Of a stretch of DNA of 64,000 bases, positions 46,853 through 63,383 are shown piece after piece. The notes below the pieces were generated by a model that saw only the letters and a program-made list of their open reading frames with translations, ran no database searches and was not told where the DNA came from. The DNA is from Temperatibacter marinus (lineage in GTDB: Bacteria; Pseudomonadota; Alphaproteobacteria; Sphingomonadales; Kordiimonadaceae): positions 3,096,501 through 3,160,500 of the forward strand of contig NZ_CP123872.1 of NCBI RefSeq assembly GCF_031598375.1. Direction: 5' to 3'. Position 1 is the first letter of the stretch. Each line of letters opens with the position of its first letter. The translations under genes and the position numbers were made by a program.

Positions 46853-46917
46853 AAACCCGCGATCTCTATTGAAATCAAGGGTTTAACTTATAAAATTGGT
46901 AGCGGAGGAGGGATTTG
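46853..46917 (-). repeat. Attachment-site repeat A (attL): tRNA-Met 3' end plus terminator
   Basis: Positions 46892-46917 are identical over 26 bases to 63358-63383, the 3' end of tRNA-Met. The flank 46853-46889 holds a hairpin-plus-T terminator (minus strand AAACCC...GGGTTT then T run) that corresponds to the terminator beside the intact tRNA. The copy breaks off after GGATTTG. This marks the left border of the island, and probably the original chromosomal tRNA end. Confidence 0.85.
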
Positions 46918-47334
46918 CCAGCCTCTGATACCAAAAATTAAATCCATAAATTTCAATATGTTATACAATATCACATTTCGTAGTGGCTCATTGTTCACGT
47001 AAATAACGTAAAATCAAAATCCTCTATTATGCAACAACTAACTTTGGCACCATAAGTGTTAATGGCGGACACAATTGCGAACAAGCTAAATAATTCTTAT
47101 AGCCTTTAAAGGAAATAGACATTTGATGAGTTTGAAGGCATCTACTCAAGCATCAACTTAATTTGAGGGCGCACAGTGATTTTGAAGAAAAGGAAAAAGA
47201 TAAAATAAAAAAACATGAAACAAAGGCGCTTGCAACACTGCAGTCAACTTGCTTAATATTAACTAACAATCAAGATAATGCACTCTCTTAGTTTAAACGC
47301 CATATGGTAACAATTTATCTGATAACGGACAAAT
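46918..47334. other. Gene-free stretch at the left island border
   Basis: AT-rich sequence without a supported gene. It contains only the left inverted repeat of the NADAR cassette (47038-47067) and no clear promoter. Confidence 0.5.
47038..47067 (+). repeat. Left 30-bp inverted repeat of the NADAR cassette
   Basis: Begins CTAACTTTGGCACC and is complementary over 30 bases, with one mismatch, to 47908-47937. The two copies enclose about 840 bases with a single gene. No transposase is inside. Confidence 0.85.
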
Positions 47335-47898
47335 ATGACCTACAATGTAAAAGATTTAATCGCTCTAACCAGCAGGAAAAAATGTAAATACGTGCTGTTC
47401 TGGGGGCATAAAAATCGGGGAAAGGAGATGACCAAAACCTGTCTCAGCCAGTGGTACCCAAGCCCCTTTTCTGAAACAAATGGGATCAGATACGCTACTG
47501 CCGAGCATTACATGATGGAGCGCAAGGCAGTGATGTTTAATGCATTCGACCTGGCTGAGGAAATACTAAAGGACGATGATCCGGCCAGAGCCAAAGCTTT
47601 GGGGAGGCAAGTACCTAACTTCGATCCTGACATCTGGGACGCTAGGAAATATTACCTTGTGATTGCAGGCAACAGACTCAAGTTTTTTCAGAATGAGCCG
47701 CTCAAGACTTACCTGCTCTCGACTGGCAAAAGAATTCTGGCAGAAGCCAGTCCTAAGGATCTGGTTTGGGGAACAGGATTAACCGAAGACCACCCGGATG
47801 CAAAAAACCCAGCTCGCTGGAGAGGCAGTAACTTGCTAGGTTTTGCCTTAATGCGAGTCAGGTCCGAGTTATTTATGAGAAGGCAAAGGGGTGGATAA
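47335..47898 (+). CDS. NADAR-domain (YbiA-like, DUF1768) protein
   Basis: A 187-aa protein with the NADAR domain: YVLFWGHKNRG, LSQWYPSPFSETNGIRYATAEHYMMERKAVMF, ILKDDDPARAKALGRQVPNFDPDIWDARKY, LLSTGKRILAEASPKDLVWGTGLTEDHPDAKNP and WRGSNLLGFALMRVR. NADAR proteins act on riboflavin intermediates (YbiA) or remove ADP-ribose from guanine bases in toxin-antitoxin/phage-defence settings. The gene is flanked by a 30-bp inverted repeat and has only a weak ribosome site. Its place in an island makes the ADP-ribose or defence role plausible, but that is inference. Confidence 0.9.
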   Translation: MTYNVKDLIALTSRKKCKYVLFWGHKNRGKEMTKTCLSQWYPSPFSETNGIRYATAEHYMMERKAVMFNAFDLAEEILKDDDPARAKALGRQVPNFDPDIWDARKYYLVIAGNRLKFFQNEPLKTYLLSTGKRILAEASPKDLVWGTGLTEDHPDAKNPARWRGSNLLGFALMRVRSELFMRRQRGG

Positions 47899-47907
47899 GT
47901 TATAATT

Positions 47908-47937
47908 CGCCATTAACACCTATGGTGCCAAAGTTAG
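47908..47937 (-). repeat. Right 30-bp inverted repeat of the NADAR cassette
   Basis: Reverse complement of 47038-47067 with one mismatch (CCATAGG versus CCATAAG). It begins ten bases after the NADAR stop codon. Confidence 0.85.
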
Positions 47938-48020
47938 CTAGCATTGTTAGAGTGATCTTACTGGGATTAAATATAGCACATCCTTAAAGTTAATTGCTCA
48001 TTGATTATCATTTTAAAGTG

Positions 48021-49424
48021 CTATCCTCTCCTATTTTTATGCATATCTTTGTCATACTTTGCAATAGCAGGGATAAGCTTTGGGCTAAGGTTTTTTCTAT
48101 GTAAGTAATCGTATAATCCCTTAGCTGTGTCTAAAAAATATTTATAATTATGTTGGAATTTTTCTGTGGTTAAGCCTCGAGCTTTAACATCGAATGAAAA
48201 TGCTAAAATAACATGTTCTGTTGCTTTTCCAGCAAGAAGATAATATTCCCTCTTCTGTTGGAATTTTAGTTTCCCATACCAATTATTATCTTTTTTTATT
48301 AAAGATAGTGTATATGGATCATGCCATTCAGTTCCCCATGACTTTTCTTTTGTCCCTGAATAAAATTCTTGAGGGCCTTTCTGTTTTATTCTTTCAATTT
48401 CATTTCTGATAACACCTCCTGTCTCAATTGAGGTTTTTACATCGCCTATAGCAAGGAGCATGTCAGTGATTTTATAGTATTGGCCATCTTTACTAGTAGA
48501 GCCTATTTCGTATTTATAATTTGGTAATCCTCCCTCTTTAGCGTGTTTCACGAACTTGATTTTCCAATCCTTAGGGAAACCTAAATATTCATGCATGCTA
48601 TTAGAGTTTATCATTGCAATTGCTATGTCCATAGCCTTATCAGTATGTATTCCTTCAGGGTAATGATCATCAAATTCTTTGTAAGCTTTAAAAGTATTGA
48701 GCTTCTTCGCAATCATCCAAGTAATATCTTGCGATAAATTATAAAAGGGGCTCTTCTTTTTATTCTCATACAATGAGGCTATATTATGAGGGTCATTTGA
48801 TTGAGCTGCTTTTAGTAAATTATTTGCTTCAATAATGTCTTTGATGGCTTGACCGTATTGAGTTGAAGCCTGATCAATATTAAGTATAATATGGTTGCGA
48901 GATGCTTCAGTAAGGAGTTCCTCAATCAGTTCGATTGTCTGGTTAAATCCCATGACATTATTTGAATATTTTTCATTCAATGATTCCAATGTTTTATTGG
49001 CAACATCTTTTGAATAATCAATTGCTGTTGATAGAGTATCTTCAATAGTTAACTCACTAATTTCTTTATCTATTTCTTTAAAGTGGAGATAAGAATTTAC
49101 TGAGTTTGATATATTGGTGTCATAGTTCTCATATATGTCGGGCCCAGTTTTAAATTTGTTCTCTAATTTTAAAAGAGAGTTTTCTAGATTTGATAAAAGT
49201 ACAATTGTAGCTTTTGAGTTTAAAGAATGATCGAGACGATCGTATGTCTTTACTTGCTTCTTGATTTTGGAAGTTAAAATCAGACTGTTGCTTATATCCT
49301 GAGAAAGATTGTACTTAAATTCAGATAGCTTATCAATTCTGAGGTTATTGTAATAGAAATATGATCCATATCCTAGTGTAACAATAACTAAAAACATTAC
49401 GATTTTAGATAGTAAATTATTCAT
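48021..49424 (-). CDS. Membrane-anchored hypothetical protein
   Basis: A 467-aa protein with an N-terminal membrane anchor (IVMFLVIVTLGYGSYFYY) and a long, mainly helical, coiled-coil-prone body (residues 35-230), then a mixed C-terminal domain (KDNNWYGKLKFQQKREYYLLAGKATEHVILAF). AGGGGAG precedes the ATG by six bases. No family is recognised. The composition is much more AT-rich than the chromosome genes. It sits in the decayed island, so a defence or surface role is possible but unsupported. Confidence 0.65.
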   Translation of the reverse strand: MNNLLSKIVMFLVIVTLGYGSYFYYNNLRIDKLSEFKYNLSQDISNSLILTSKIKKQVKTYDRLDHSLNSKATIVLLSNLENSLLKLENKFKTGPDIYENYDTNISNSVNSYLHFKEIDKEISELTIEDTLSTAIDYSKDVANKTLESLNEKYSNNVMGFNQTIELIEELLTEASRNHIILNIDQASTQYGQAIKDIIEANNLLKAAQSNDPHNIASLYENKKKSPFYNLSQDITWMIAKKLNTFKAYKEFDDHYPEGIHTDKAMDIAIAMINSNSMHEYLGFPKDWKIKFVKHAKEGGLPNYKYEIGSTSKDGQYYKITDMLLAIGDVKTSIETGGVIRNEIERIKQKGPQEFYSGTKEKSWGTEWHDPYTLSLIKKDNNWYGKLKFQQKREYYLLAGKATEHVILAFSFDVKARGLTTEKFQHNYKYFLDTAKGLYDYLHRKNLSPKLIPAIAKYDKDMHKNRRG

Positions 49425-49705
49425 AAATTCTCCCCTTAAAAATAACTTAGCTAATTACTTACTTATTTGTCAATTTCCCGGCCTTAAAGGCCTTTAAAAT
49501 TATTAATAATTGAAAAACACTTTTTATTAATGCTTTGTAAGTTGAGTAATAATATTAAGCACGTGATTTGAATTTTAACTTGGCTAGTTATTAAAATTAA
49601 TTTGAATTATTTATAACTTTACATAAGTCTTATCAGCTAATAACTTTCTACTCTGAATTAAGTGAAACTGTATTAAAAATAAATTTTATCCCCTAAGGAA
49701 TTACA
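49425..49705. other. Divergent AT-rich promoter spacer
   Basis: A 281-base, very AT-rich spacer between two divergent orphan genes. One short hairpin (GGCCTT-A-AAGGCC, 49488-49500) is visible. No gene is seen. Confidence 0.45.
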
Positions 49706-50176
49706 ATGAATAAACCTGGTATTATTAATATGTTAGTTGGGCTATTTTGGGGAGTTGCAACTTTGATTGGTGTTTTTGTTTATGAGTATTTACTTTATAT
49801 TTTAGCCATATTAGCACCTCTGCAGTTTCTATACGGTTTGGGGCAGTTTATTCACTATAAATTTCTTATGGACCCAGATGAAGCCGCGCAATATGACTTT
49901 TCGCTTGATACAAGTCATGTAAAAACTGGAAAATTTTGGTTGATTATTGCTTGCTGTATTGGAGTGTTTACAGGTTTTGACATTTATACTCGTATTGATA
50001 TGGAATTTGTTGCAGTCCCTACATTGTTATTAGCAACATATTGTTTTTTCTGTTTATATGAAACTTATGATTTTGAAGGCTGGAAAAATAGGGCTTATTA
50101 TACAAAAATGTTGTCTTTAGCTTGTTTAGGTGGAGCCATTTATAATGGCATTCGTGCATATAATATAATATTTTAA
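49706..50176 (+). CDS. Small polytopic membrane protein
   Basis: A 156-aa protein with four hydrophobic segments (IINMLVGLFWGVATLIGVFV; YLLYILAILAPLQFLYGL; FWLIIACCIGVFTGF; VPTLLLATYCFFCLY). AAGGA precedes the ATG by seven bases. No family recognised. It is divergent from the anchored 467-aa protein. Confidence 0.6.
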   Translation: MNKPGIINMLVGLFWGVATLIGVFVYEYLLYILAILAPLQFLYGLGQFIHYKFLMDPDEAAQYDFSLDTSHVKTGKFWLIIACCIGVFTGFDIYTRIDMEFVAVPTLLLATYCFFCLYETYDFEGWKNRAYYTKMLSLACLGGAIYNGIRAYNIIF

Positions 50177-50290
50177 TTATTAAAATTTAACGGATGACTA
50201 TCTCAGAAACTCTGTCACTCGAAACCTTTTAATATATGAATATAAACAGTAGCTTATTCTTTTAGCTAAGCATTGTTCTTTAGTTTTCAA

Positions 50291-50377
50291 TTATAGACGT
50301 AAATCAAAATAGCTTGTATTAATGAGAAAATTCTTACGGAGATAGTAAACCGCACCACGGCGGATTAAGTTCTGCAC
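50291..50377 (-). pseudogene. N-terminal remnant of a tyrosine integrase
   Basis: On the minus strand, 28 codons from a GTG at 50377 read VQNLIRRGAVYYLRKNF and end FDLRL then a stop. This aligns with the start of the intact integrase (LNYLYRRNAVYYFRK ... IELRLSLK). The distance and orientation to attachment repeat B copy those of the intact integrase to repeat C. The rest of the gene is gone, so this is the stump of the integrase of island 1. Confidence 0.75.
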
Positions 50378-50462
50378 TTTTGGCAGCTTCAAACTCCTGC
50401 GAGGGAGCTTTTAGCTGTCATTTTAAGGTTAAACGGAACGCCCTAAAGGACCACTAAAAGAA

Positions 50463-50521
50463 AAACCCTCGATCTCTATTGAAATCAAGGGCTTATCTTA
50501 AAATTGGTAGCGGAGGAGGGA
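50463..50521 (-). repeat. Attachment-site repeat B: internal tRNA-Met 3' end plus terminator
   Basis: Positions 50500-50521 match 22 bases of the tRNA-Met 3' end (core GGTAGCGGAGGAGGGA). The adjoining hairpin (minus strand CCCTTGATT...GAGGG, T run) is nearly identical to that of repeat A. It divides the island into two units. Confidence 0.85.
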
Positions 50522-50589
50522 AGCGAAACCAATACCCTCTCAGTCTGAAACCAACAGTAATCCTAGTTCTTCAAAGCATATTGTTAACA

Positions 50590-50617
50590 TGCTATTGGCA
50601 CAGCTGTGCCAATAGCA
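50590..50617. repeat. Perfect 28-bp palindrome near the left end of island 2
   Basis: Half-site TGCTATTGGCACAG followed directly by its exact complement. Each arm contains TTGGCACA, the same octamer that occurs twice at the integrase end (63264-63271 and 63277-63284). Likely a recombinase arm or directionality-factor binding site. Confidence 0.7.
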
Positions 50618-50741
50618 CTATTGAATCATTGTAAATGATTTTTGTCAACTGAATAGAACTGAACTATTAAAGAGAGTTATATGGCGATTTCATCCGACAA
50701 AAACCAATAAACGAAAGGCATAGATATACTCTTGTAAGCGG

Positions 50742-51251
50742 TTATTTAAATAGCCGCTTAATGCCAGCAATTACAGACGACCCTAAGCCACCCTCGTCGA
50801 ATACTTGTTGTGATTTTATTTTTGTAATTCGTTCTTGCTCAGAATAATAGAAATAATCATTATTGGTAAAAGACTCTTCGGTACCGAAAGCCTTTTTCAG
50901 CATCTTTTGTTCTTCTTCTTTTGTAACCTTGAGCGCACTGGATAGATAGTGGGATAAAAACATTGGTTTTGCTTCTATCTGCAGAAAAATTTGACGTAAG
51001 AGTTCTTCACCTTCAGGAGATAGTTGTTTTGCACCCACCATTAACATGCGGTTAAAGTCTACGAATGAAACATTAGCGTCTAATTCTTGAATTTCGCTTT
51101 CAAATTCCTCTTTAGTGATATGTAGATGGTTCATAAAATCATATTCATGCAAATTTGAGAGAATAAAAGCTGCTTTAGCGATTAATTGACCTTCCGGTAA
51201 ATCTTTAGTGGCGCCTAGCTTAATTGCTTTCAGAACGGTAATTTTAGACAT
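50742..51251 (-). CDS. Hypothetical protein downstream of the mob genes
   Basis: A 169-aa soluble, helical, acidic/basic-alternating protein without signal or known motif. GAGGA lies about nine bases before the ATG. It follows the MobC-like gene by 20 bases, so it belongs to the mobilization operon and may be an accessory transfer or stability protein. Confidence 0.65.
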   Translation of the reverse strand: MSKITVLKAIKLGATKDLPEGQLIAKAAFILSNLHEYDFMNHLHITKEEFESEIQELDANVSFVDFNRMLMVGAKQLSPEGEELLRQIFLQIEAKPMFLSHYLSSALKVTKEEEQKMLKKAFGTEESFTNNDYFYYSEQERITKIKSQQVFDEGGLGSSVIAGIKRLFK

Positions 51252-51271
51252 AGTTATTTGTCCTCTTCTTT

Positions 51272-52033
51272 CTAGTGTGCGTTTCTGACAGAATTTTCTT
51301 GTTTGTCAGCACGTGCATTTTCTGCATATTCACGAAATTTCGTCATAGTGATGAAGGTGAACGGTTTTCTGTGTTCATCTCTGATATTAATAAGGCGTTG
51401 ATTGTGTTTAACACTCTCAATACCCATCATGATTTGTTGAAGGCGCCGGTTAAATGCATCATCAGGTGTGATGTATAGTACCTTGTGGTATACGCCCTTA
51501 TTCAGCTTTAATATGTGCTGATATGTCAATTGCTGATACCTAATGTGCGACTTGGTGGACCTTTCACACTCGATGCAGATAATCTGACCTTTCTTATCTG
51601 TAACAAGCGCATCTGGCTTTTTCTGTCCCTTGATTTTCATCGTGTTTTCATAATGAAAATCTGCCCAACCAAATGTATCGCAATGGATTTGAACTTCACG
51701 CAACATGACTTCATGGTCATACGTGCCAAAATGAAACTTTGCTGGCTTAAATAGCTTATAGGCAGATAAGTCTTCGTCGGGTTGTAGAGCCATTCCCAGC
51801 CCGTGAGGGCTCAATGACCAGATGGTTTTGCGTCTGCCATCATCTAAGCTAAATTGATGACGTCTGATCAATCCTTGTTTCTCCATGTTACTCAAAAGAC
51901 GGTGGGCCATTTGGCGGGAGTTAAACCCACACAAGAGCTGAATTAAATCCTGTGAAGACCAGCCACTTACTTTCAAGTGGCAAAGAACCATCATAATATA
52001 AATTTCATGCTTTTTATTGTTAGAGATAGTCAT
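51272..52033 (-). CDS. MobC-like relaxase / replication-relaxation family protein (CloDF13 type)
   Basis: A 253-aa protein with an N-terminal winged-helix segment (LLCGFNSRQMAHRLLSNMEKQGLIRRH) of the replication-relaxation family. A C-terminal nuclease-like core reads KPDALVTDKKGQIICIECERS, an Asp then Glu-x-Glu arrangement as proposed for the non-HUH MOB-C relaxases of CloDF13 type. Its ATG is three bases past the coupling-protein gene, reproducing the mobB-mobC order of CloDF13. It would nick the transfer origin. The assignment rests on size, motif and gene order. Confidence 0.7.
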   Translation of the reverse strand: MTISNNKKHEIYIMMVLCHLKVSGWSSQDLIQLLCGFNSRQMAHRLLSNMEKQGLIRRHQFSLDDGRRKTIWSLSPHGLGMALQPDEDLSAYKLFKPAKFHFGTYDHEVMLREVQIHCDTFGWADFHYENTMKIKGQKKPDALVTDKKGQIICIECERSTKSHIRYQQLTYQHILKLNKGVYHKVLYITPDDAFNRRLQQIMMGIESVKHNQRLINIRDEHRKPFTFITMTKFREYAENARADKQENSVRNAH

Positions 52034-52036
52034 GGT

Positions 52037-53800
52037 CTATCCTTTCGGCAGTAAATCATCATCAAAAGACGAGAAAGGCATTAGCTCGTCATTAATACTG
52101 CGTGGTGGTGTATGATTTGTAACGATTGGCTTATAGGGAACTGGATCAATCAAGATAGGCGCTGTAATCCCAAGCTGAGGAATGCCTCCTGCTCCCATAA
52201 TAAGGCAGCAACGCTTAGGTAAGTTCATAAGAACATTAGTTGAAAAGTATGGCACTTGAGTTTGAGCTAATGTTCTTCCTCTTTTATGAAGTTCAGAATT
52301 AGCTTCATTGGTCTCAGTTTGTTGAATTTCATTATCCACCAAAATTGTTCCAGTTAGATCAGAGAACATCTTTGCAGTCTTTGGATTCTGACAACGATAA
52401 GACAGTTTAAGTCCAGTATTGTCTGTTACCGTCTGATAAACTACCTTTGGCTCCAGACCTGCTACCGCAATTTCAATATCACCTAAACTTTGATGACAAA
52501 GCCAATACGAGGCATTACTTGACCTTAGGGCCCCAAGACTATCACAAATTACACGCGATAATGAATATTTAAATTCATCTCCCACGATAGTAACATGGCT
52601 GGATTTATCGTCTCTATTTTCTACGATTTGAGGAATACGAGCAAAGATTAAACGCTGAAGCATTTTCACTGCATCATCCCGCATGGCACCCTTAAAATAC
52701 CAAACTCCCTGTGAAGAGAGAATTTCCTCTAAATCATTCGGCGCATCAGTCTGCACGGCAGGAATCAGTGCAATTTCTTTGATTTTTTTATAAACATCAC
52801 CCAACTCATCATTAATATCTTCTGCTAAATCCAAAAGTTTTGGAAAGCTGGGGTTCTCATCAATCATATAACATAGTGTATATAATGGATCGCGCTCATT
52901 AATACGATAGTGATCACTATCTTTATCGCTTAAGGACAAACCGAACGCCGAGATTAAAAGCTCATACAAATCTTCAGGCGTTATATTATGTAATGGATTA
53001 AACTGAGGTGGTTGATCTCTTTTTAAGTTAATTTCACGATAAGGAACACCTGCAATTTTTGCCGAATTTTCTAGTAATGCAGGCAAATAGACATCGTGCT
53101 TAGGGTCAATTGTGACAACAACATGCCTGCCCGAAAGGACTCTCTGGCAACAAGCAATAGCACATACCATGCTTTTACCTGCAGATGGTGCACCAACAAG
53201 CTGAACATTCGTTTCACGGTAGTAGTCTTCATCCAAAAAAATTGGTTTATGGTTTTCATCTAAACACAGAAAAACCTTGTTAAGTTTTAAAGCCTGCTGA
53301 AAGTATTTTGTGGGGTCATATTTAATGACTTCAGGAAATAATTTTGCCAAATCTCTGACATCTGTAAGCCCCTTCTTGTCGACACTCTTAAGTGCCCGTT
53401 TGGTCTTTCTATTCATGTATGGCTCAAGATATCGTGCAATCAAATGACGCAATACGAAGCCTGTTGGTAGACCTACCACTAATCCTGCAAATCCATACAT
53501 ATAAACCTGTTCAAAGTGATGTTTAAGCTGAAGGATGAGATCATATCTGGTGATAAATGCTGCAATTAAGCCTGTTCCAACAAAGAATGTAGCAGTATAG
53601 AAGATAACAATTAAACCACCCGATAGTAGTCGTGTAACAGATGGTAAGAATGATTTATCACCTTTGCATACGACAGATGTGCGATGAAGTGCAGGTAAAA
53701 GGCTGGCAATAAGAAAGGCATAGGTGAACAACCAATCTTTTGAGTGAGCGAGTGTGATGATAGAATATTGTACGAGGTCATGTGACGATAGCGAAAACAT
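52037..53800 (-). CDS. Type IV coupling protein (TraD/MobB-like ATPase)
   Basis: A 587-aa membrane ATPase. The N-terminus has membrane segments (LFTYAFLIASLLPAL; GLIVIFYTATFFVGTGLIAAF; MYGFAGLVVGLPTGFVL). The ATPase domain has Walker A QLVGAPSAGKSMVCAIA and a Walker B-like VTIVGDEF, with TIDPKHD between them. Such proteins dock the relaxase-DNA complex at a secretion channel. The start at 53800 has GGAGAA seven bases upstream; the frame is open to 53848. It precedes the MobC-like gene, and a large structured region lies just upstream. Confidence 0.82.
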   Translation of the reverse strand: MFSLSSHDLVQYSIITLAHSKDWLFTYAFLIASLLPALHRTSVVCKGDKSFLPSVTRLLSGGLIVIFYTATFFVGTGLIAAFITRYDLILQLKHHFEQVYMYGFAGLVVGLPTGFVLRHLIARYLEPYMNRKTKRALKSVDKKGLTDVRDLAKLFPEVIKYDPTKYFQQALKLNKVFLCLDENHKPIFLDEDYYRETNVQLVGAPSAGKSMVCAIACCQRVLSGRHVVVTIDPKHDVYLPALLENSAKIAGVPYREINLKRDQPPQFNPLHNITPEDLYELLISAFGLSLSDKDSDHYRINERDPLYTLCYMIDENPSFPKLLDLAEDINDELGDVYKKIKEIALIPAVQTDAPNDLEEILSSQGVWYFKGAMRDDAVKMLQRLIFARIPQIVENRDDKSSHVTIVGDEFKYSLSRVICDSLGALRSSNASYWLCHQSLGDIEIAVAGLEPKVVYQTVTDNTGLKLSYRCQNPKTAKMFSDLTGTILVDNEIQQTETNEANSELHKRGRTLAQTQVPYFSTNVLMNLPKRCCLIMGAGGIPQLGITAPILIDPVPYKPIVTNHTPPRSINDELMPFSSFDDDLLPKG

Positions 53801-54488
53801 AAAGTTCTCCATTCTGAATATCGAAATTGGTATTGAAGGGGATGCCAAGCGCGTAGCGTGCGGAAGCCACTAGGCTGAAGTAACGGCAAGGATCATTTAC
53901 ACTTCAGCAGATGAAATACTGGTGAATGATCTTTGATCTCGTCTGCCGACCGTCAGAAATAAAAGACGGCATAAACGAGATCGCAGCAAATCAAGACCCC
54001 AGTCTTGAATTGACTGCGACCAAAGAGGTAGTGAAGGTTCCCCAGAACCGGAAAACAATGTGTACACCCAAGTGTAGGCATGGTGGCTGCCTCGCCGCCT
54101 GTCGGACTGCAAAGCGGTCCCGACCATCCGAGAGTTGGTATTGCGTACAGCAAGCCCTTGGGCCCTTGAGTGAGGACGGTCAACAGCAGATAATAAATCT
54201 GCCGTTCCTCGCACAAGAGAGTGCTCAGTGCTCGGATGGTCGGGACTGATCACCTCACTGAGGTAAGGACCAGACAGGCGGCAATTTGCAGGGGTAATAT
54301 TGAACGGTACAGCATCGACTAGATGCCCGTTTAAGCCTGCAATACTAACGGTTTCAAGATATAAGGAGTGGCGTCCAGTAAACGAAGAAATATTCTTGAA
54401 ACCCACATTCTGTCGTTGACATACCTTGTTGACGAGGATTGTTGACACCGCTTTACAAGCAGTGTCAACAACAGATGATGCCTTAAGC
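53801..54488. other. Large non-coding region of nested perfect hairpins: candidate oriT or ornate RNA
   Basis: At least ten stems are visible. GATCATT/AATGATC closes 53891-53931. GATCTCGT/ACGAGATC (53935-53982) has an inner CCGTC/GACGG. TCGCAG/CTGCGA (53981-54019) encloses TCAAGAC-CCCA-GTCTTGA. Small hairpins lie at 54036-54049, 54063-54076 and 54252-54264. GCCGCCTGTC/GACAGGCGGC (54094-54282) encloses a perfect 16-bp pair, 54117-54132 with 54231-54246. TTGCAGG/CCTGCAA closes 54286-54342, GGTTTCAAGA/TCTTGAAACC closes 54350-54403, and TTGTTGACAC/GTGTCAACAA closes 54439-54471. It is richer in GC than the genes around it. It lies directly upstream of the coupling protein. Confidence 0.7.
54415..54453 (+). 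repeat. Three 13-bp iterons (GTTGAC-N5-TT)
   Basis: GTTGAC recurs at 54415, 54428 and 54441 with exact 13-base period, each unit ending in TT. The third overlaps the hairpin at 54439-54471. Iterons of this kind bind replication or relaxosome proteins. Confidence 0.6.
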
Positions 54489-54950
54489 CTAGGCATTCCA
54501 CTTACTCATGAATGTGTGTTTTTGACTTTCAGTAAAGTCGAAAATAACAGACAATGACTTTTCAACAAAGTCTTTCGTTGGTTGGATTTGAGCAAATGCA
54601 TTATTGGTACATTTGATGAATGCAGCCGAGAATTGAAGGTTCTTCACATCAAAGCCATTAAAGCTCTCGCCACTCATAGGCGTAAAGATAAATCGGCGAA
54701 TTTGATCTTCAATATGATCCAAGGTATCCACGCCGTAGCTATTTGCAACAGCATGCAAAGCAATAATGAAGTCTGTTGAAGGTGAGTATTCTGGGCTGTC
54801 TTTACCTTCATTGATCATGAGACAAACCATTTTCTTAACGAAAAGGTTTAACTCATCGTCAGACATCAGGCGGTATTGCAAACAAATGCCAGACGACAAT
54901 AAATGAAAAATGGATTTTGGACATAATTGTCCTGTATAGTGAAAACTCAT
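54489..54950 (-). CDS. Hypothetical island protein
   Basis: A 153-aa soluble protein with no recognised family. AGGAG lies eight bases before the ATG, which supports expression. The middle section (LFVKKMVCLMINEGKDSPEYSPSTDFIIALHAVANSYG) is helical. It sits just upstream of the structured region and could be a DNA-binding or processing partner, but nothing in the sequence proves this. Confidence 0.65.
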   Translation of the reverse strand: MSFHYTGQLCPKSIFHLLSSGICLQYRLMSDDELNLFVKKMVCLMINEGKDSPEYSPSTDFIIALHAVANSYGVDTLDHIEDQIRRFIFTPMSGESFNGFDVKNLQFSAAFIKCTNNAFAQIQPTKDFVEKSLSVIFDFTESQKHTFMSKWNA

Positions 54951-55092
54951 CAGTTTTCTCCTCTAAATAAATTCAAACAAAACGATACACTTCACCTGCA
55001 ACACAGATGTTGACCGTATTTTTCATTTGTCAGTGAAGAGACTTTAAGGTAAGCTTCAGGTCTGAATCGGAGCTGACCTTGTGTCTCTTCAT

Positions 55093-55129
55093 TAAAAAGC
55101 GTCATAGCCCTTGGGCATTGGCGCTTTTT
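55093..55129 (-). terminator. Bidirectional intrinsic terminator
   Basis: AAAAAGCG pairs with CGCTTTTT around an inner GCCC-TT-GGGC stem, with T runs on both strands. It lies downstream of the four-gene operon. Confidence 0.65.
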
Positions 55130-55231
55130 TACTTTCCCACCCATTACGTATGCAATGAGCATCGAAGCTGACAATCTAGATATTAACAAAAAACTGCTAC
55201 CACCGCAACCCCGAATAAATATTTTTTCTTT

Positions 55232-55249
55232 TGTAACCAATAGGTTACA
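55232..55249. promoter_or_regulatory. Operator-like inverted repeat TGTAACC-AATA-GGTTACA
   Basis: A perfect 7-bp inverted repeat with a 4-base spacer. It is followed by a T6 run ten bases... further on the plus strand, so an alternative reading is a weak terminator. It shares the TGTAACC half-site with the LacI operator at 28.77 kb, but with a different spacing. Confidence 0.4.
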
Positions 55250-55421
55250 CTATGTTTTTTAATAAAATAGTATAATTATCATTTCTTCATACATTTCTAT
55301 TTCTACTCAAATATTAAATAACACATCGACAACAAATTGATTATCAAGTCAGCCTGATAAATTTGAAAATGAATTTTCACCGAAGACGGACATAGCTGAC
55401 TGTTTAACTGGCTTGGGGAGT

Positions 55422-56645
55422 TTAAGCTTTACCTGTATGAACAATTTTAGGAAACACACCTCTTTCAAGAGCGTGATTAGCGATATCAATTAAGTTATCA
55501 AAAAAATGATCTGAGCTAGTCGAATTTTTTGTTAATAGATGTAATTGAGGGTAGTCCGTCAAAACCACAGGAAGTTCCAAATCAACCATCAAATTTATAA
55601 CTGGGTCACTACATTCTTTATACTCGTCATCAAACAATTCCTTAACAATAACTAGTCCAATAAGCTGTTTATCCAAATTCATGATTGAAATTGAGTTAGT
55701 TGCAGTTTTTATTGATATTCCATTGTTGTTTTTTGCATGGGTCATTGCTCCACACAATTGATCTATTGCTTTCGATATATGCCTTTTTATGGTTTTTCTT
55801 TTCCTATCTATCTTTCTGGTAAGAGACTTAGGCGTATTAGGACTATCTTTGGCTTGAATGAATAAAACTTCATGCTCGGTTACAACTAATATATCCGTTA
55901 ATTCCTTATCTGTATCTATCCTGTATGGATTTACATAAATCTCAGATTTATCGAATATTCGTCTCATGAGGAGTGCTATATCACGCTCTTGCATATCCCC
56001 AGGATTTTTATCTCGATCGAGACTGGTCATTGCAATCGACTGCATATCATCATTAAAGCCGTCGAACTCTTCGCGGACATCTATAATAAGCGTATCATCA
56101 GGATAAATTCTTTTTTCGAACTTGATAGTAAAAGCATTAGCATCATCCGCAACATCTCTGACAGAAAATCTTCGTTGTAATCGTTTTAATATGCCTACAA
56201 CATCACCTTTTTCTGAGTTATAAAACTTTGCCTGAGTAAGAAGATTGCCAAATATTTCATGCTTTTCATTGATTGCTGAAATTCCCATTATTTCTCGGTC
56301 AAGTTCATCAAAAAAGTATATATCAAACTCGGACTGATTAAGGGCATGACAAATATTTAGCATTAACTCGTCATCATCAAAAATTGGTGTCGTTAGTGTC
56401 AGAGGTTCGTCATGGTCATCAAAGAACGCAGTGATCAAACCTAAACTGTATAAATCATTCTCATAATCCTTTAAAAAATATACTTTAAATTCATTCTGTG
56501 TACGGGCTGTTAAAATCATTTCCTTTGTTGTTTTTATTACAAAAAACCATTTGCCAGTCTCATTATTTTTTAAAGGTATATACCCACCATTAAATGGTTG
56601 AATGTATTTGATAATTTCTGGGTATAAAATAGAGATCATTGTCAT
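55422..56645 (-). CDS. PD-(D/E)XK-like nuclease-fold protein, last gene of the defence operon
   Basis: A 407-aa protein. Near residue 250 a restriction-nuclease-like core is visible: TDILVVTEHEVLFIQAKDSP, with D251 and Q264-A-K266, where Q replaces the usual Glu as in some PD-(D/E)XK enzymes, and E220 as a possible upstream acid. The N-terminal 200 residues are unassigned. The gene starts six bases after the HEPN gene stop, so the two are co-transcribed. A nuclease effector role is inferred from this motif and the operon. Confidence 0.6.
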   Translation of the reverse strand: MTMISILYPEIIKYIQPFNGGYIPLKNNETGKWFFVIKTTKEMILTARTQNEFKVYFLKDYENDLYSLGLITAFFDDHDEPLTLTTPIFDDDELMLNICHALNQSEFDIYFFDELDREIMGISAINEKHEIFGNLLTQAKFYNSEKGDVVGILKRLQRRFSVRDVADDANAFTIKFEKRIYPDDTLIIDVREEFDGFNDDMQSIAMTSLDRDKNPGDMQERDIALLMRRIFDKSEIYVNPYRIDTDKELTDILVVTEHEVLFIQAKDSPNTPKSLTRKIDRKRKTIKRHISKAIDQLCGAMTHAKNNNGISIKTATNSISIMNLDKQLIGLVIVKELFDDEYKECSDPVINLMVDLELPVVLTDYPQLHLLTKNSTSSDHFFDNLIDIANHALERGVFPKIVHTGKA

Positions 56646-56651
56646 GTGTCT

Positions 56652-57245
56652 TTAAGTAGAGATGTTTAATACGCTAGCTAGATGTGAAAAAACGGCTGTT
56701 GTGAAATACTCAGAAAGCTCAATAGCAAGATACGCATCATCTTTAGATACTGGATTACAAGAATGTACTGCAGAATTTCTAATTTTTTTCTGTCTTTCCC
56801 ATTCTTGTTTCAAGGTTCGCCCTGTATCACCAAACTCTTCTTCACTTAGGTTTACGCCATATTTTTCAAGAATTTTGAAAAGCAAATTCAAGAAATTCTT
56901 GTTTTGCATAACAATCGGAGCAATGATCTCATCAACACTTTCATCATGAATAAATCCCGCAACTACGGGTTCTAATAATACTTTTTTGATGAAATATTCC
57001 GTTGCCGCAAATGCAAAAACAAAAGAAGCAGTACTATCTACTTTTAAGATAGCTTTTGCTTTTTCTAAGTATTCTAGAGCTGGCGCAGCTAACTTCTTAT
57101 TAGCTCTATAGTATGAAGATAATCGTTCATCCTGAAAATCAGCTATGATTTCATCTCGAGCACCTTCGATTATTTCTTCTACCATTTCATCATAGGCCGC
57201 TTGTTCAGCATACCAATAATCTCGATCTTCATCTGGGTGTGCCAT
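56652..57245 (-). CDS. HEPN-like protein with an R-x4-H motif
   Basis: A 197-aa helical protein. IRNSAVHSCN places R156 and H161 in the R-x4-H motif of HEPN ribonucleases, late in an all-helical C-terminal half that has the HEPN/apea-like look (SFVFAFAATEYFIKKVLLEPVV). The start overlaps the helicase gene by 17 bases and has a GGGGGA site. HEPN proteins cut RNA in many defence and toxin systems. Toxicity here is not proven. Confidence 0.65.
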   Translation of the reverse strand: MAHPDEDRDYWYAEQAAYDEMVEEIIEGARDEIIADFQDERLSSYYRANKKLAAPALEYLEKAKAILKVDSTASFVFAFAATEYFIKKVLLEPVVAGFIHDESVDEIIAPIVMQNKNFLNLLFKILEKYGVNLSEEEFGDTGRTLKQEWERQKKIRNSAVHSCNPVSKDDAYLAIELSEYFTTAVFSHLASVLNIST

Positions 57246-59154
57246 TTACATTCCCCCAATCCAGTTTCTTTAATCCTAATGTCGATAATTTAGTCTCGTC
57301 AGCGCCTTCAGGAACCGCCCAAATGAGTAACTTTCTTGGCCTTGAGCTCGCTACGTAGGCAAATCGAGCTGGCTCTTGAGAACTATCCTCCAACCACTTT
57401 TCCCAATGGCCGTCCTTGCCCTTTGTTGGTGATGATACGAGCATTACTGCATCTAATGTATCCCCTTTGACTGAATGGATTGTTCTAATAGGAATATTCG
57501 TGGCGTTTCGCTTTACATATTTAATCGTCTGAATAACATTTTTACTGGCATCACCACTTGGCGAGCTAAAAACAAGCTTGCTAGGTATGCTGAACTGATA
57601 TGATCTATCATTATATTCTAACAAATAATGACTGTTAGTGACTGCATTATGAAGAGTTACTTTTAGCTTTTTTGCCCATGCTGACCATTGCAGTTCTAGG
57701 TTTTTAACCTCATTGTCATCACATACCTTTGTTAAAATAGAAGCAATAAATGTACGCCAATTAGAAGCTGTAGAAACAATTGATGGTAAATGGAATTTGG
57801 AGGGGCTAGCTGAATTATCATTAAAATATTTATTGGCTAAGAATTTTCCCATCAATTTTAGCGCATCAATTAAACTCTCCTCCTCACCTTCACTCCAAAT
57901 TTTAATAGCTAAAGCGACTTCATGTGAGGGCTTTAGATTGGCATTTGATGCAGGGCGCATTCTAGAGATCATCGAATGACCTCGTGTGATTATAGCTGAA
58001 GTTTTAAATAGACCTGAATTATCACGTTCTAGATATTGTTCAAAACTTTCAGATAGATCACTAATGTTCCTTTTGTCATATAATACATAAAAGCAATCTA
58101 AAGCAGGGATTTTGGCATTGCCTTTTATTGGAGTACTTAAATCAATAACTTTATTACAGAAATCGACAACACCTTGATGGCTTCTAAAGTTATTTGTTAA
58201 CTTCAATACTTTCATCTTATTTTCATCAGCAAAATTTTGGACTAAACTGGGATCAACTTTTTTAAAGTTATAGATTGCTTGATCTAGGTCCCCTACCAAA
58301 TTGATAGAAATTCCTTTGTCATGTAAAGTTTGCAATATAATTAATTGCCCAGCAGATAGGTCTTGGGCTTCATCAACAAAAATACAAGGAAAACGTTTTG
58401 CTAAGAAATCACATAATTCATCTTGCTTATCGAGCAACTCTTTACACATAAGCTCTATATCTTGATAATTAGCAAAGCCTGCTTCCCAAAATTTCTTTTT
58501 TGTATTTAACAATTCAGTATTTTGCCATATTTCTAAAGTCATACTGTTTCTAGCGGAATCTACAGTGCGTTTTCCACTTGCAAATTCCCATTGGCTACTT
58601 GAAACATCATAATGGTACTGATTAGCGAATGGTGTACCAGTCCCATTATATTGATACTTAGTAGAGTAACTATTAAGAAACCCCGCTTCTGATGATGGAT
58701 CAATTAATCTGAACGACCTATCCAGATCATTTTGATCCTCTCCATTATATTTAGTGAGATGATGCAGGAAAGGGTGAGCAATATAAGAATGTAACCAGCT
58801 ATCGAAGGTGCCAACAAAATGTGGGTAAACGATACTGCTCAACCCTGTAAATTCAGAAATTCGATCTGTGATGACATCTGCTGCATTGTTAGTAAATGAT
58901 AGAATTGCAATGCCGCCATTTATCTCCCACCTAGAAATTTCATAAGCAGCTTTTATTGCGACTACTTCTGTTTTTCCACTTCCTGGGCAAGCCTTAAGAA
59001 ATGTAGATTCATCTATTGATGAAAAAATATAGTCTAATTGTTCCTCAGTTTTTTCATCAATACGGCATGCCCCGTAAGATTGGCATTTATTACAGCTTTT
59101 ATGTTTAGTTCCTGAAGGACATAATGCATTAAGTAATGATGATTTATTAGTCAT
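57229..59154 (-). CDS. UvrD-like superfamily 1 helicase (GajB-like)
   Basis: A 641-aa SF1 helicase: Walker A LKACPGSGKTEVVA (residues 53-66), GGIAILSFTNNAADVI, Walker B CIFVDEAQDLSAGQL, VGDLDQAIYNFK, LTNNFRSHQGVVDFCN and IRTIHSVKGDTLDAVMLV near the end. The first 30 residues hold four cysteines (C12, C21, C24, C30) in a metal-site-like pattern. The ATG at 59154 has GGAGG eight bases upstream and overlaps the stop of the OLD nuclease gene by eight bases. The pairing and order match GajA-GajB of Gabija, although both proteins here are larger than typical members. Confidence 0.85.
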   Translation of the reverse strand: MTNKSSLLNALCPSGTKHKSCNKCQSYGACRIDEKTEEQLDYIFSSIDESTFLKACPGSGKTEVVAIKAAYEISRWEINGGIAILSFTNNAADVITDRISEFTGLSSIVYPHFVGTFDSWLHSYIAHPFLHHLTKYNGEDQNDLDRSFRLIDPSSEAGFLNSYSTKYQYNGTGTPFANQYHYDVSSSQWEFASGKRTVDSARNSMTLEIWQNTELLNTKKKFWEAGFANYQDIELMCKELLDKQDELCDFLAKRFPCIFVDEAQDLSAGQLIILQTLHDKGISINLVGDLDQAIYNFKKVDPSLVQNFADENKMKVLKLTNNFRSHQGVVDFCNKVIDLSTPIKGNAKIPALDCFYVLYDKRNISDLSESFEQYLERDNSGLFKTSAIITRGHSMISRMRPASNANLKPSHEVALAIKIWSEGEEESLIDALKLMGKFLANKYFNDNSASPSKFHLPSIVSTASNWRTFIASILTKVCDDNEVKNLELQWSAWAKKLKVTLHNAVTNSHYLLEYNDRSYQFSIPSKLVFSSPSGDASKNVIQTIKYVKRNATNIPIRTIHSVKGDTLDAVMLVSSPTKGKDGHWEKWLEDSSQEPARFAYVASSRPRKLLIWAVPEGADETKLSTLGLKKLDWGNVNGTPR

Positions 59155-61102
59155 CAACACTGCCTCCACATGCCCAAATGACAGCTTTATTTATGTTGTC
59201 AGGAATCGTGAAATTACTATCTTCTTGTAATACTTCAGATAATAACTGCGCATAATACCCTTTCCCCATATTATTATCTTCAATTCTTTTTAGAATGATA
59301 TTTGCATTACTCCCCTTTATCTGAGGCTTTTCATCATTCCATTCTTTCTCTGCTATACTTTTAATCTCTTTGTAAACTGTTCCACGATTATGCCAATTAT
59401 CCTGTAAGACTTTTGCCATGACCTGAAGGTTGTTACCTTCCATAGCCAAGTCATATTCTAGTGTCTTGTATGCTCCTGTATATAATCGACAATAATCTGA
59501 TGAGTTAATCTTCGTTAAAAGGTTTAAAACAGGATTTTTACCGTCATTGTGATCAGGATCGATTGGAGTAGCGGGTATCGTTTTTTCATCCTTTTCGTCT
59601 TTCAACTTTTCAGGGTCTTTATCGGTAATCCCTGCGCATCTAATTTCTATGTTTTGGCAATCTTTGTCTTGCTTGCCAAAATTACAGAAAAGACGCATGA
59701 AATGCTTAAAATATATACCATTCATATTGACGATACTAACACCTGCCTTTTCTAAACTGTCTGGCAACAAATCTTTTTTGTCTTTGCCTTCATTATAATT
59801 TTTAAGGATGCTTTTTGCTAATTGTGGTACTAAAAAAGCCTCTGCGATGCCTTCGACCAAAATAACACCCTTGGCAAATAGTAAGGTTGATTTTGTCGTA
59901 TCCAGCCACCTGCTTAAAAACAAATTACTTGCAGGTATTAAAACGTCTTCTTTACCATCAATTTCATGCTTAATATCTTTATCAATACCTGTACATATTA
60001 TTGGCGTTGCATTGATGCTACTTGTGTTGCCTGAGGAAATATGGATAAGGCTCTCAATTGACGCTGAAGATGCCAACACAGGTGAGTGTGACGTAACTAT
60101 TACTTGTATAGGAGATGTTTCATTTTTTGAAATCTCTTCAAGATATTTTAAAAGTCTTATTTGAAGCTGTGGATGAAGATGGGCTTCAGGCTCTTCGACC
60201 AACAATACTTTTAATCGTTCATCCTCTTCACCTGAGTCTATCAATTCTGCCAATACGGTTGCTAAATATAATAAGTTATTATGACCTAAGCTATTCTCAT
60301 TTAACGAGCGATAATAATCTTTGTTTGTTCCATCACTTATGAAGTCTGGGAAGAAAAACAACCGTAAACTTTCCGCAATTCTATTAAAGCCTACTTCTGA
60401 AAATCCAATATGAGTATCTTGACCAAATACTTCACCAACAGCATCTGTTAGCTTACTCTTGATTAAGTCATTCATCTTTTTTATTGGAAGATCATCGCTT
60501 GTTGCGATGTCATGGTTGAATGATTGAACCTTCTTTTCTAATGAATGTATCTCACCTTTATCTTTAAGTTCTTTAAGGGCTTTTGCTTCTATATTTTTAA
60601 GTAATTTAGCCAGTCGAGAAGCTTTTCCTTCTTTAAGTTTTGCTTCAGCATCTCGAAGAGGCGGTAAATAAATGCAATTGAACTTTTCGAACAATTCCCA
60701 TTCAAAGGCCGAAGATTTTGAACTGCCACCCCAAACGTGTCTTTTAAAGCGACCGTATTTTTCTTTATTTTCTACTTTTAAATTTAATGTGGCGTGCTGG
60801 TCTATATCATACCAAGGTAAGAAAGTAACTTTGTCATCCTTAGTTAATCCTGCAAAGCTTGCTTGAATAACAAAACTTTCAGAGGCTTGAGCGCTTACTT
60901 CGAAGGGTTTGTGAAAATCACTTTCTGATACAGGAGTATAACCAAATTCATCTTCCCTCAAAAGCAATCGTATGGCATCAATTATTGAGGTTTTTCCTGA
61001 AGCATTTTCCCCAACTATAACATTAAGCCCCTGCCTTAAATGGATAGCTGTTTTCTGCCCTATTCCTTTGTAATTTTCGATAGATATATTTGAAATGTAC
61101 AT
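59147..61102 (-). CDS. OLD-family ATP-dependent endonuclease with TOPRIM domain (GajA-like)
   Basis: A 651-aa protein. The ABC-type ATPase comes first: YISNISIENYKGI, Walker A VGENASGKTS (residues 30-39), the signature region ENSLGHNNLLYLATVLAEL and Walker B VLLVEEPEAHLHPQLQ. A TOPRIM nuclease domain follows: AKGVILVEGIAEAFLVPQLA with its Glu and GITDKDPEK with Asp-x-Asp. This is the OLD/GajA layout, in which ATP or nucleotide levels control DNA cleavage. It is the first gene of a four-gene operon. No strong promoter is visible in the 120 bases before it. Confidence 0.87.
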   Translation of the reverse strand: MYISNISIENYKGIGQKTAIHLRQGLNVIVGENASGKTSIIDAIRLLLREDEFGYTPVSESDFHKPFEVSAQASESFVIQASFAGLTKDDKVTFLPWYDIDQHATLNLKVENKEKYGRFKRHVWGGSSKSSAFEWELFEKFNCIYLPPLRDAEAKLKEGKASRLAKLLKNIEAKALKELKDKGEIHSLEKKVQSFNHDIATSDDLPIKKMNDLIKSKLTDAVGEVFGQDTHIGFSEVGFNRIAESLRLFFFPDFISDGTNKDYYRSLNENSLGHNNLLYLATVLAELIDSGEEDERLKVLLVEEPEAHLHPQLQIRLLKYLEEISKNETSPIQVIVTSHSPVLASSASIESLIHISSGNTSSINATPIICTGIDKDIKHEIDGKEDVLIPASNLFLSRWLDTTKSTLLFAKGVILVEGIAEAFLVPQLAKSILKNYNEGKDKKDLLPDSLEKAGVSIVNMNGIYFKHFMRLFCNFGKQDKDCQNIEIRCAGITDKDPEKLKDEKDEKTIPATPIDPDHNDGKNPVLNLLTKINSSDYCRLYTGAYKTLEYDLAMEGNNLQVMAKVLQDNWHNRGTVYKEIKSIAEKEWNDEKPQIKGSNANIILKRIEDNNMGKGYYAQLLSEVLQEDSNFTIPDNINKAVIWACGGSVDD

Positions 61103-61223
61103 TTATTTTCCATTACTTTTAGGTGTAAAAGTTAATAATTGCATATCAAATCGAAACTCTCCACAAAATTGTCACCAATACAACCACTATACAGGAAAAT
61201 TAGTATTTTTCAGATACAGAAAC

Positions 61224-63221
61224 CTACATGCACAATAGGTCTAGATCATGCTTTTTCATATACCGTTCAAAGTCAGCAGCATTCGCATCCATCATTTCCA
61301 GATGTGCGCGTGACCAAAAATCACGATTTGGTAATGGATGAAAGTCATTGTCCCCTAAACTCTCTGATCGGCCAATCATATTGGCGTTAGAAATAAGTTT
61401 GATCGGCACAAGCTTCAAATGGCTGGTCACAATAGGGATCACAGCGTTGATGTCGTTTAGAACAGGCATATAGCCCCCAGCATTATATACAACATCACCT
61501 AGCGTTGTTTTATTGTCATTGCGGCCCAAGAATTCTGCCACATGTCGACTCTCAATATGTCTACCGTCAATTTTCACCCTCCCTACTAGAGTTTCCACTG
61601 AGTGACGAAATCCTCCTAGCGTCATTTCAGGATACTTCATATCTCCAAATAACTTTGGTCTCATCTTCGTCCAAATAAGCCTATTAAAAACATCCCCTGT
61701 TGCTGTAGTTCTACTGGTAGGAATAAGCTCTGGGAAAAGAGCTCTTCTTCCAGCCATATGCGTTGCCAGCACAAATTCTTTAAACCCTAATCTCACTAGC
61801 TCTGGATGAACTGGAATAACCCTTAGGCTTGTTTTCTTTTTAATATTTCCCATGAGATTAGAGCGTATCACCACACACAAAGTTCCTGAGGTTTCCAGAA
61901 AGTCACTCGTCATTAAACCACAAGCTTCACTTGGCCTCATACCAGAATACCAAAGCAGTAGAGGCACCCAATATGCTGCGTCTTGATAGATGGCCCGCCC
62001 TGCTTCAAATCTAGGACTAACTTTTTTAGGGCCGTCAATCTTCTCACCGCGCGATCCTGTATAGATCGTAGTACTGAAAAGCTTAGTTGCATCACTTACC
62101 AAGATGTATTCTGTTCTTTCTTTTGTTGATCGATAATCACGCTTCGTAGTTTTGAGAAGGTCCCATTCAATTGTCGGAACAATGTACCCTTTCTTTCTAT
62201 CGTCTGTCAGGAGCATTTTTAAAGCAGTAATTGATCCATTGATCTTGTTAATCGATAGCCCGTCGCCTTTTAAGGCACTAGGCATTTGTCCTACAACAAA
62301 TCCTTTCTTTTTTTCTTTGTTTTCTAGGCATTTAAGGAAATTGGACAATTTTTCCTGTGTTACATCAGCTACTGTGTCATCAGGATAAATTTCAGTATAT
62401 CTAACGATTGCAGTCTTATAATCCTTACCGCCCTTATTACCCCATTGACCTCCGCTCACCTGATCTTCTTCAAATGTCAGGAAACGCTCAAGCAACTTTA
62501 TTCTTGGTGCTATATTTTTCTGATCTGGTAATTGTTCGAGTTCAGGGCGGGATTCTGTACTAAGTTGTGTTTGAATGGAATATTTCTCAACCTTATGAGG
62601 CTTATCAATTTCCTCACCTAAAACATTTAAATTAGCTTGCAATACTGCTTCTGCTATTGCTTCGCATACCAATTTCCAAACATCATTACGAACACTAGAA
62701 GTTTTCAACAGCTCAAACTGATCAAGAATTTGATCACGGTATCTTGCTGCGACGCCCCTTGTGTCAAGCTGGGAGGCAATCATTTGAGAAGACAATTCCC
62801 CACGTAGCTCCGAACTGTTGATTTCAGGGTTTCCTTCATATTTAAATAGGCTAGGTAAAGCGCTGTGAATAGTCCGCCATTGATTATTCTGTGAGATATA
62901 CTCCTGTAGTGTGGCTTCATTGTCGTCAGACATTTTCAGTTCAGCTTGAAACTGGTTCAACAGTCTATCGCGCTCAAAAGAAACGACATCTTTAAAGGCT
63001 TCTATTCTTTGCTCTGATGTTAAAAAATTTCCACGCCCTTTTAACTCGACCACACTTTTTTCCTCAATAAACACTACTAAATAATCACTTATACTTTTAG
63101 CTAGTGTCTTGCAGTACGTTTTTAAAGATAGGCGCAGTTCTATTTTTTCACCGCCGCATAAAATGACTTTGCGAAAGTAGTAAACCGCGTTGCGGCGATA
63201 TAGGTAATTTAATGATGGCAT
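61224..63221 (-). CDS. Large tyrosine site-specific integrase
   Basis: A 665-aa integrase, longer than typical phage integrases (about 400 aa). The N-terminus (SLNYLYRRNAVYYFRKVI) matches the DUF6538-type start common in alphaproteobacterial integrases. The catalytic domain has the first arginine in WYSGMRPSEACGL, LGGFRHSVETLVGR with the second, and the nucleophile in GDVVYNAGGY. The usual HxxR histidine is replaced by Gly. GGAGGG sits six bases before the ATG at 63221; the frame extends to 63311 without support. It faces away from the tRNA it uses as target. Confidence 0.85.
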   Translation of the reverse strand: MPSLNYLYRRNAVYYFRKVILCGGEKIELRLSLKTYCKTLAKSISDYLVVFIEEKSVVELKGRGNFLTSEQRIEAFKDVVSFERDRLLNQFQAELKMSDDNEATLQEYISQNNQWRTIHSALPSLFKYEGNPEINSSELRGELSSQMIASQLDTRGVAARYRDQILDQFELLKTSSVRNDVWKLVCEAIAEAVLQANLNVLGEEIDKPHKVEKYSIQTQLSTESRPELEQLPDQKNIAPRIKLLERFLTFEEDQVSGGQWGNKGGKDYKTAIVRYTEIYPDDTVADVTQEKLSNFLKCLENKEKKKGFVVGQMPSALKGDGLSINKINGSITALKMLLTDDRKKGYIVPTIEWDLLKTTKRDYRSTKERTEYILVSDATKLFSTTIYTGSRGEKIDGPKKVSPRFEAGRAIYQDAAYWVPLLLWYSGMRPSEACGLMTSDFLETSGTLCVVIRSNLMGNIKKKTSLRVIPVHPELVRLGFKEFVLATHMAGRRALFPELIPTSRTTATGDVFNRLIWTKMRPKLFGDMKYPEMTLGGFRHSVETLVGRVKIDGRHIESRHVAEFLGRNDNKTTLGDVVYNAGGYMPVLNDINAVIPIVTSHLKLVPIKLISNANMIGRSESLGDNDFHPLPNRDFWSRAHLEMMDANAADFERYMKKHDLDLLCM

Positions 63222-63263
63222 TGATACCCTCCAAATTGAGGAACTGCCTTCTAGATGTGCATT

Positions 63264-63284
63264 TTGGCACAGGTTATTGGCACA
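63264..63284 (+). repeat. Paired TTGGCACA octamers next to the integrase (arm-type sites)
   Basis: TTGGCACA at 63264-63271 and 63277-63284, 13 bases apart, between the integrase start and repeat C. The same octamer builds the palindrome at the other island end. Confidence 0.55.
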
Positions 63285-63308
63285 AAATTCCGACCAAACC
63301 GATGCGCG

Positions 63309-63344
63309 CAAAAAAAAGAAGCCCCCGACTTACTTTGAAGTCAA
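63309..63344 (-). terminator. Terminator of the tRNA-Met gene
   Basis: On the minus strand AAGCCCTTGACTT pairs with AAGTCGGGGGCTT (two G-T pairs) and is followed by a run of T residues. It was delivered with the element; counterparts remain at repeats A and B. Confidence 0.8.
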
Positions 63345-63357
63345 GGGCTTAACTTTT

Positions 63358-63383
63358 AAAATTGGTAGCGGAGGAGGGATTTG
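63358..63383 (-). repeat. Attachment-site repeat C (attR, within tRNA-Met)
   Basis: The 26 bases shared with repeat A and 22 with repeat B. They cover the CCA end, the acceptor-stem 3' strand and part of the T arm of tRNA-Met. Confidence 0.85.

Follow-up and report, generated by a model that had tools for sequence, protein, structure and literature searches.

The window, a stretch of 64 kb from Temperatibacter marinus analysed as a whole, contains a mobilizable island of 12.9 kb (50498–63383) situated between copies of the 3′ end of tRNA-Met (24 and 27 bp). An integrase-like gene (61224–63311) is found beside the tRNA-Met gene (63363–63439). Three copies of the tRNA-Met 3′ end are present, at 46891 (27 bp), 50498 (24 bp) and 63357 (27 bp), and a second segment of 3.6 kb (46891–50498), with no integrase gene listed, lies in tandem with the island. 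A match to the PADLOC candidate defence family PDC-M42C (47335–47898, + strand; 4.3e-42) is located between two att copies. The island carries as cargo a Gabija anti-phage pair (57229–61102) consisting of GajA (2.4e-234) and GajB (1e-191). From the mobilization region to Gabija there are two genes of 407 and 197 amino acids (55422–57245, − strand), neither of which has a Pfam match.

Two island genes on the − strand resemble mobilization genes. The mobB-like gene (52037–53799) encodes a VirD4-type coupling protein that matches PF12696 and is 21–32% identical to MOBC coupling proteins. The next gene is mobC-like (51272–52033), immediately downstream, and encodes a relaxase of the Replic_Relax, PD-(D/E)XK type. 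The relaxase matches PF13814 with 25.6 bits, just above the cut-off of 25.3, and the NCBI MobC subfamily NF041423 with 173 bits (E 5e-51), below the cut-off of 200, and it is ∼30% identical to MobC of many plasmids. In the P-D ... E-x-E-R ... K region, this relaxase and four relatives agree at every acidic and lysine position. Judged from sequence, the gene pair is a mobB-mobC module of the MOBC family, whose prototype is CloDF13. No transfer-pore genes are seen in the island's gene list, so that mobilization would depend on a helper, as it does in CloDF13.

A structured intergenic region (53800–54488) lies between the mobB-like gene and a gene for a 153-amino-acid protein of unknown function (54489–54950, − strand). 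It is a putative MOBC oriT, as suggested by its fold z-scores, by a cluster of motif hairpins and by the presence of the same region in relatives; its conserved-loop strand is the + strand. Both strands of 53820–54488 form much more stable structures than dinucleotide shuffles do (z from −8.5 to −9.6), and none of the 20 shuffles made for each fold folded as well. With RNA parameters the fold energies are −268.8 for the + strand (z −9.6) and −255.9 for the − strand (z −8.5), and with DNA parameters they are −142.1 (z −8.5) and −134.0 (z −8.6), respectively. An earlier note, made from the letters alone, had counted at least ten stems; at least 20 helices of four or more pairs are common to two or more of these four folds. 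The longest perfect inverted repeat has 16 bp, compared with a maximum of 12 and a mean of 8.2 in 60 shuffles. The GC content, which the note had put above that of the AT-rich surroundings, is ∼0.50 vs. 0.31–0.42 in the flanks.

The note had also stated that the region holds no credible gene, and this stands for the most part. A frame of 199 amino acids (53897–54496, − strand) covers almost the whole region and is unusually long, as frames of at least 190 codons occur in 0.2% of shuffles. It has no Pfam match and no tblastn match in plasmids. Long open stretches, of up to 222 codons, are also found in some relatives.

Read along the + strand, the folds begin with a small hairpin GCGCG-TAG-CGTGC (53849–53861), which may alternatively form a weak C(GTA)G hairpin with three Watson–Crick pairs and a G-T pair. 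The folds then show a hairpin with a 10-bp stem AAGGATCATT/AATGATCTTT (53888–53934) and a two-part hairpin GATCTCGTC...AACGAGATC with an inner TGCCG/CGGCA stem (53935–53982). Two hairpins, both picked up by the motif scan, have the CCCA tetraloop of the family: TCAAGAC-CCCA-GTCTTGA with seven perfect pairs (53981–54019) and GGTTC-CCCA-GAACC (54036–54049), the second also appearing in the folds. TACAC-CCAA-GTGTA (54063–54076), also seen in the folds, has the variant loop CCAA. Next is a perfect 16-bp inverted repeat, which, as described in the note, spans 130 nt (54117–54132/54231–54246) and is enclosed by a closing 10-bp pair GCCGCCTGTC/GACAGGCGGC; an inverted-repeat search places the latter at 54094–54103/54273–54282, also perfect. 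Within the repeat the folds give the inner hairpins CTTGAGTGAGGA/TCCTCGCACAAG and ACAGCAGAT/ATCTGCCGT (54165–54217). On the 3′ side are TTGCAGG/CCTGCAA with an inner GCATC/GATGC stem (54286–54342), seen in all four folds, GGTTTCAAGA/TCTTGAAACC (54350–54403) with the family motif GCGTCCAG at 54371–54378, and TCGTTGACA/TGTTGACGA (54413–54435). A terminal hairpin with 15-nt arms and one mismatch (54439–54471) is not followed by a T-run. The window has two CCCA hairpins, one CCAA hairpin, one weak GTCCA hairpin and no strong C(GNA)G hairpin. Two or more CCCA hairpins, as found here, were present in none of 3000 shuffles, and the best cluster of family motif hairpins in the entire 64 kb is at 53998–54041 (+ strand), inside the structured region.

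Both arms of the 16-bp repeat contain the nic-like motif GGATGGTCGGG, at 54119–54129 (−) and 54234–54244 (+), and 0 of 3000 shuffles match this. CloDF13 has GGGTGGTCGGG, from which the window motif differs by one base. We take GGGTGGTCGGG to be the nic sequence of CloDF13, the nic of that plasmid presumably being GGGTG/GTCGGG. Many enterobacterial MOBC elements have GGGTGGTCGCG in both arms of a long inverted repeat. This agrees with the literature on pMET1 and the HPI of ECOR31, where the putative oriT precedes mobB and an inverted repeat in it contains two nic sites (PMC2262945).

Close DNA homologues of the structured region were found neither in 100 related genomes nor, by DNA search, in plasmids, and relatives were therefore reached through MobB. 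A single-protein scan of genome contigs and an alignment scan of viral contigs gave no relatives. In three plasmids the region upstream of mobB is as strongly structured as that of the window, with z-scores of up to −16 (10 shuffles each), and an alignment of 13 MobB proteins led to 80 further loci. Taken together, CloDF13, enterobacterial ICEs and plasmids, and Vibrio, beta- and alphaproteobacterial elements nearly all have a strongly structured region of 0.45–0.75 kb upstream of mobB. The sequence GCGTYCAGC is present upstream of mobB in most of the 80 loci, usually in one to four copies and mostly between variable complementary bases; enterobacterial elements have two copies 42 nt apart. 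Two or more motif hairpins occur near the mobB start in 65 of 79 loci and elsewhere in one, and the 13 with fewer include several with little or no upstream sequence. None of 30 control loci (97 kb) has two motif hairpins.

A match to the enterobacterial element is present in 313 of 5,426 E. coli genomes. In three chromosomal MOBC elements of E. coli (L150, L151 and L152), virB genes and the structured region are grouped with mobB and mobC, and the last of these elements adjoins clbS, a colibactin gene. A Vibrio plasmid (L031, 4348–5119) has two small genes between mobB and mobC, and a topoisomerase gene follows mobC. In the CloDF13 group, plasmids having the origin but lacking mobC are not in excess (the region occurs in 837 records and mobC in 876, as unmatched counts only).

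The covariation analysis proposed in the earlier note was carried out on 31 enterobacterial copies, and the helices covary strongly. Across the 95 consensus pairs, 98.0% of cells can pair. Changes on both sides were seen in 41 pairs, as opposed to 19.1 ± 2.2 in shuffled alignments and 7–10 in slid structures, and the covariation score is 0.220 vs. 0.090. Some consensus pairs occur as three Watson–Crick types with zero broken cases. The nic-bearing repeat covaries as well, with one pair found as CG in 17 copies, AU in 12 and UA in one. The hairpin loops CCCA, GTYCA and C(GNA)G are constant on variable stems, all on one strand. Pairing itself, beyond sequence, is conserved in these copies. A covariance model of the enterobacterial form (R1, with two GTYCA hairpins) clearly matches four loci (L032, L033, L034 and L048) and others weakly, and it does not find the window copy. 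The window copy is a distant family member that shares the gene context, the nic repeat, the CCCA loops and one GCGTCCAG.

The question of which strand acts, raised in the note, can be answered. Elements were oriented by GCGTYCAG alone and fall into two orientation classes, represented by 29 and 13 non-redundant elements. CCCA tetraloop hairpins are found on the motif strand vs. the opposite strand in ratios of 45:0 and 26:0, respectively. One strand acts, and in the window it is the + strand. The motif strand has the same sense as mobB in 57 of 72 oriented regions and is reversed in 15; the reversed class includes CloDF13 and the window.

The loops also bear on the nature of the folded molecule. 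C(GNA)G triloops occur on the motif vs. the opposite strand as 43:1 and 29:2 in the 29 and 13 elements (72:3 in total). This loop class has been reported to form extraordinarily stable DNA mini-hairpins, e.g. GCGAAGC (PMC4686876). The GTYCA loop is likewise a G...A loop closed by C-G. GNRA loops are at background (5:8 and 7:2) and no UNCG loops are found in the MOBC loop census; in the RNase P control, 23 of 27 tetraloops are GNRA. In pairs predicted from both strands, G-U vs. A-C counts are 109:83 for MOBC, which are partly alignment noise, and 24:1 for RNase P, a small set of 8 sequences from enterobacterial relatives; MOBC subsets of 8 give 21:25, 24:14 and 13:13. These near-equal counts are a sign for DNA over RNA, but are supportive only. 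A strand-preference test based on mismatch counts is weak (47 G-U to 29 A-C), with too few cases in RNase P. Promoter and terminator matches are at chance level only. The Rfam search that the note had proposed gave only tRNA in the 64 kb and no match in three relatives. Thus the one-strand C(GNA)G loops, the lack of GNRA or UNCG excess and the small G-U preference favour folded single-stranded DNA over RNA.

The region directly upstream of mobB-mobC contains an inverted repeat with a nic-like motif, and relatives have a region of this kind in the equivalent place. The window region is therefore probably the oriT of the island's CloDF13-type MobB-MobC module, with the + strand selected to fold as an array of single-stranded DNA hairpins around the nic-like repeat. 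Of the three options given in the earlier note, a transfer origin has strong support from the neighbouring genes, from the inverted repeat with its nic-like motif and from the occurrence of such an ornate region in most of the MOBC relatives that were tested. The option of a large RNA in the style of GOLLD or ROOL finds no support, as there is no Rfam match, no excess of RNA tetraloops and little G-U preference, and the triloops are of the DNA type and on one strand.

In the proposed mechanism, MobB and MobC, the presumptive protein partners, would assemble on the folded region. MobC, together with MobB, would nick the + strand within the right arm of the nic-like repeat. From this presumed transferred strand, the 3′ part with the GTYCA motif would enter the recipient first, with the CCCA hairpins following behind. 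The relaxosome or the coupling protein may read the constant loops (CCCA, GTYCA, GNA) on their variable stems. MOBC relaxases have been reported without a covalent intermediate (PMC12857230, PMC9299015), and for this reason the folded strand is perhaps a non-covalent handle through which the coupling protein keeps hold of the transferred DNA. We tentatively suggest the possibility that MOBC elements have a large natural folded single-stranded DNA of ∼0.5 kb, made up of about 15–20 helices with loops specific to DNA. The mobilization proteins would read this structure, and it would retain the transferred strand without a covalent bond, in the role that a covalently attached relaxase has in other systems.

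Other functions of the region may be considered. The folded strand might be a single-strand origin or a single-stranded promoter, which starts complementary-strand synthesis or early expression in the recipient. Frpo-type elements occur on conjugative leading regions, and this counts in favour of such a role; it would act as folded DNA on the same transferred strand and is compatible with the oriT reading as a possible second function. However, the loop motifs are common to MOBC modules of alpha-, beta- and gammaproteobacteria, a distribution that suits recognition by Mob proteins more than by a host polymerase, and promoter-like sites are at chance level. This role is unlikely.

It is improbable that double-stranded DNA is the active form of the inverted repeats, whether as cruciforms or as plain protein binding sites. 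The near-symmetric G-U/A-C counts would fit cruciforms too, and TraX of pAD1, a MOBC relaxase, binds direct repeats 70–120 bp from nic (PMC12857230). Plain duplex binding, however, does not predict freely varying compensated stems with constant loops on one strand.

A structured RNA from the region that is needed for mobilization, as sgm-sRNA is for SGI1, has a good RNA fold to its credit (z −9.6, + strand). In nearly all elements for which energies were compared, the motif strand has better RNA-parameter values than the opposite strand, and SGI1 is an example of an element with an atypical relaxase that needs an RNA from its mob region (PMC9299015). Such an RNA is nevertheless quite improbable given the absence of GNRA/UNCG enrichment, a G-U count barely above A-C, the chance level of promoter and terminator matches and the lack of an Rfam match; in addition, families differ in the orientation of the motif strand relative to mobB. 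The setting is not that of sgm-sRNA itself, whose gene neighbours are mpsA and mpsB, as the relaxase here is MobC and not MpsA. A 5′ leader of the mobB mRNA, which the position directly upstream of mobB might suggest, is ruled out with near certainty, since in both CloDF13 and the window mobB and the conserved strand run in opposite senses.

A MOBC oriT upstream of mobB is known already. The conserved, strand-specific, DNA-type fold of ∼0.5 kb across the MOBC family seems to be new; no such fold was found described in the literature searched, a scope that excluded most subscription papers and the original CloDF13 work. MOBC modules move ICEs and plasmids for resistance and virulence in enterobacteria, and the fold with its loops provides a signature for finding MOBC origins by computer. 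A 2025 review (PMC12857230) describes strand recruitment and religation without a covalent relaxase bond as open questions. For these, a DNA fold that is conserved on one strand and has unvarying loops offers something concrete to examine.

Several known systems resemble the window region in part. Frpo and other single-strand origins and attC sites function as folded single-stranded DNA; compared by description, they are smaller and have other motifs. GOLLD and ROOL RNAs are similar in size and ornateness, but the window region matches no covariance model of these or other Rfam families and has a DNA rather than an RNA signature. SGI1 is a mobilizable island too, and its mob region likewise has a structured non-coding stretch next to the mobilization genes (PMC9299015). 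Its sgm-sRNA, however, is an RNA with mapped transcripts and is associated with the unrelated relaxase MpsA, whereas the window has DNA-type loops. The Gram-positive plasmid pAD1 has a MOBC-type PD-(D/E)XK relaxase as well; this enzyme, TraX, has binding sites away from nic, and no covalent intermediate has been detected (PMC12857230). The pAD1 oriT, set apart here by description and not by sequence, consists of five direct repeats and has no hairpin array. The oriT of CloDF13 and of the MOBC plasmids and ICEs pMET1, pCRY and HPI ECOR31 has the same position upstream of mobB-mobC and an inverted repeat that contains a nic-like motif. Hairpins with GCGTYCAGC and with CCCA are found in the oriT regions of CloDF13 and other MOBC elements, described in the literature as 'putative oriT' (PMC2262945). 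Unlike these, the window region has diverged in sequence, has one copy of GCGTCCAG and has perfect 16-bp arms.
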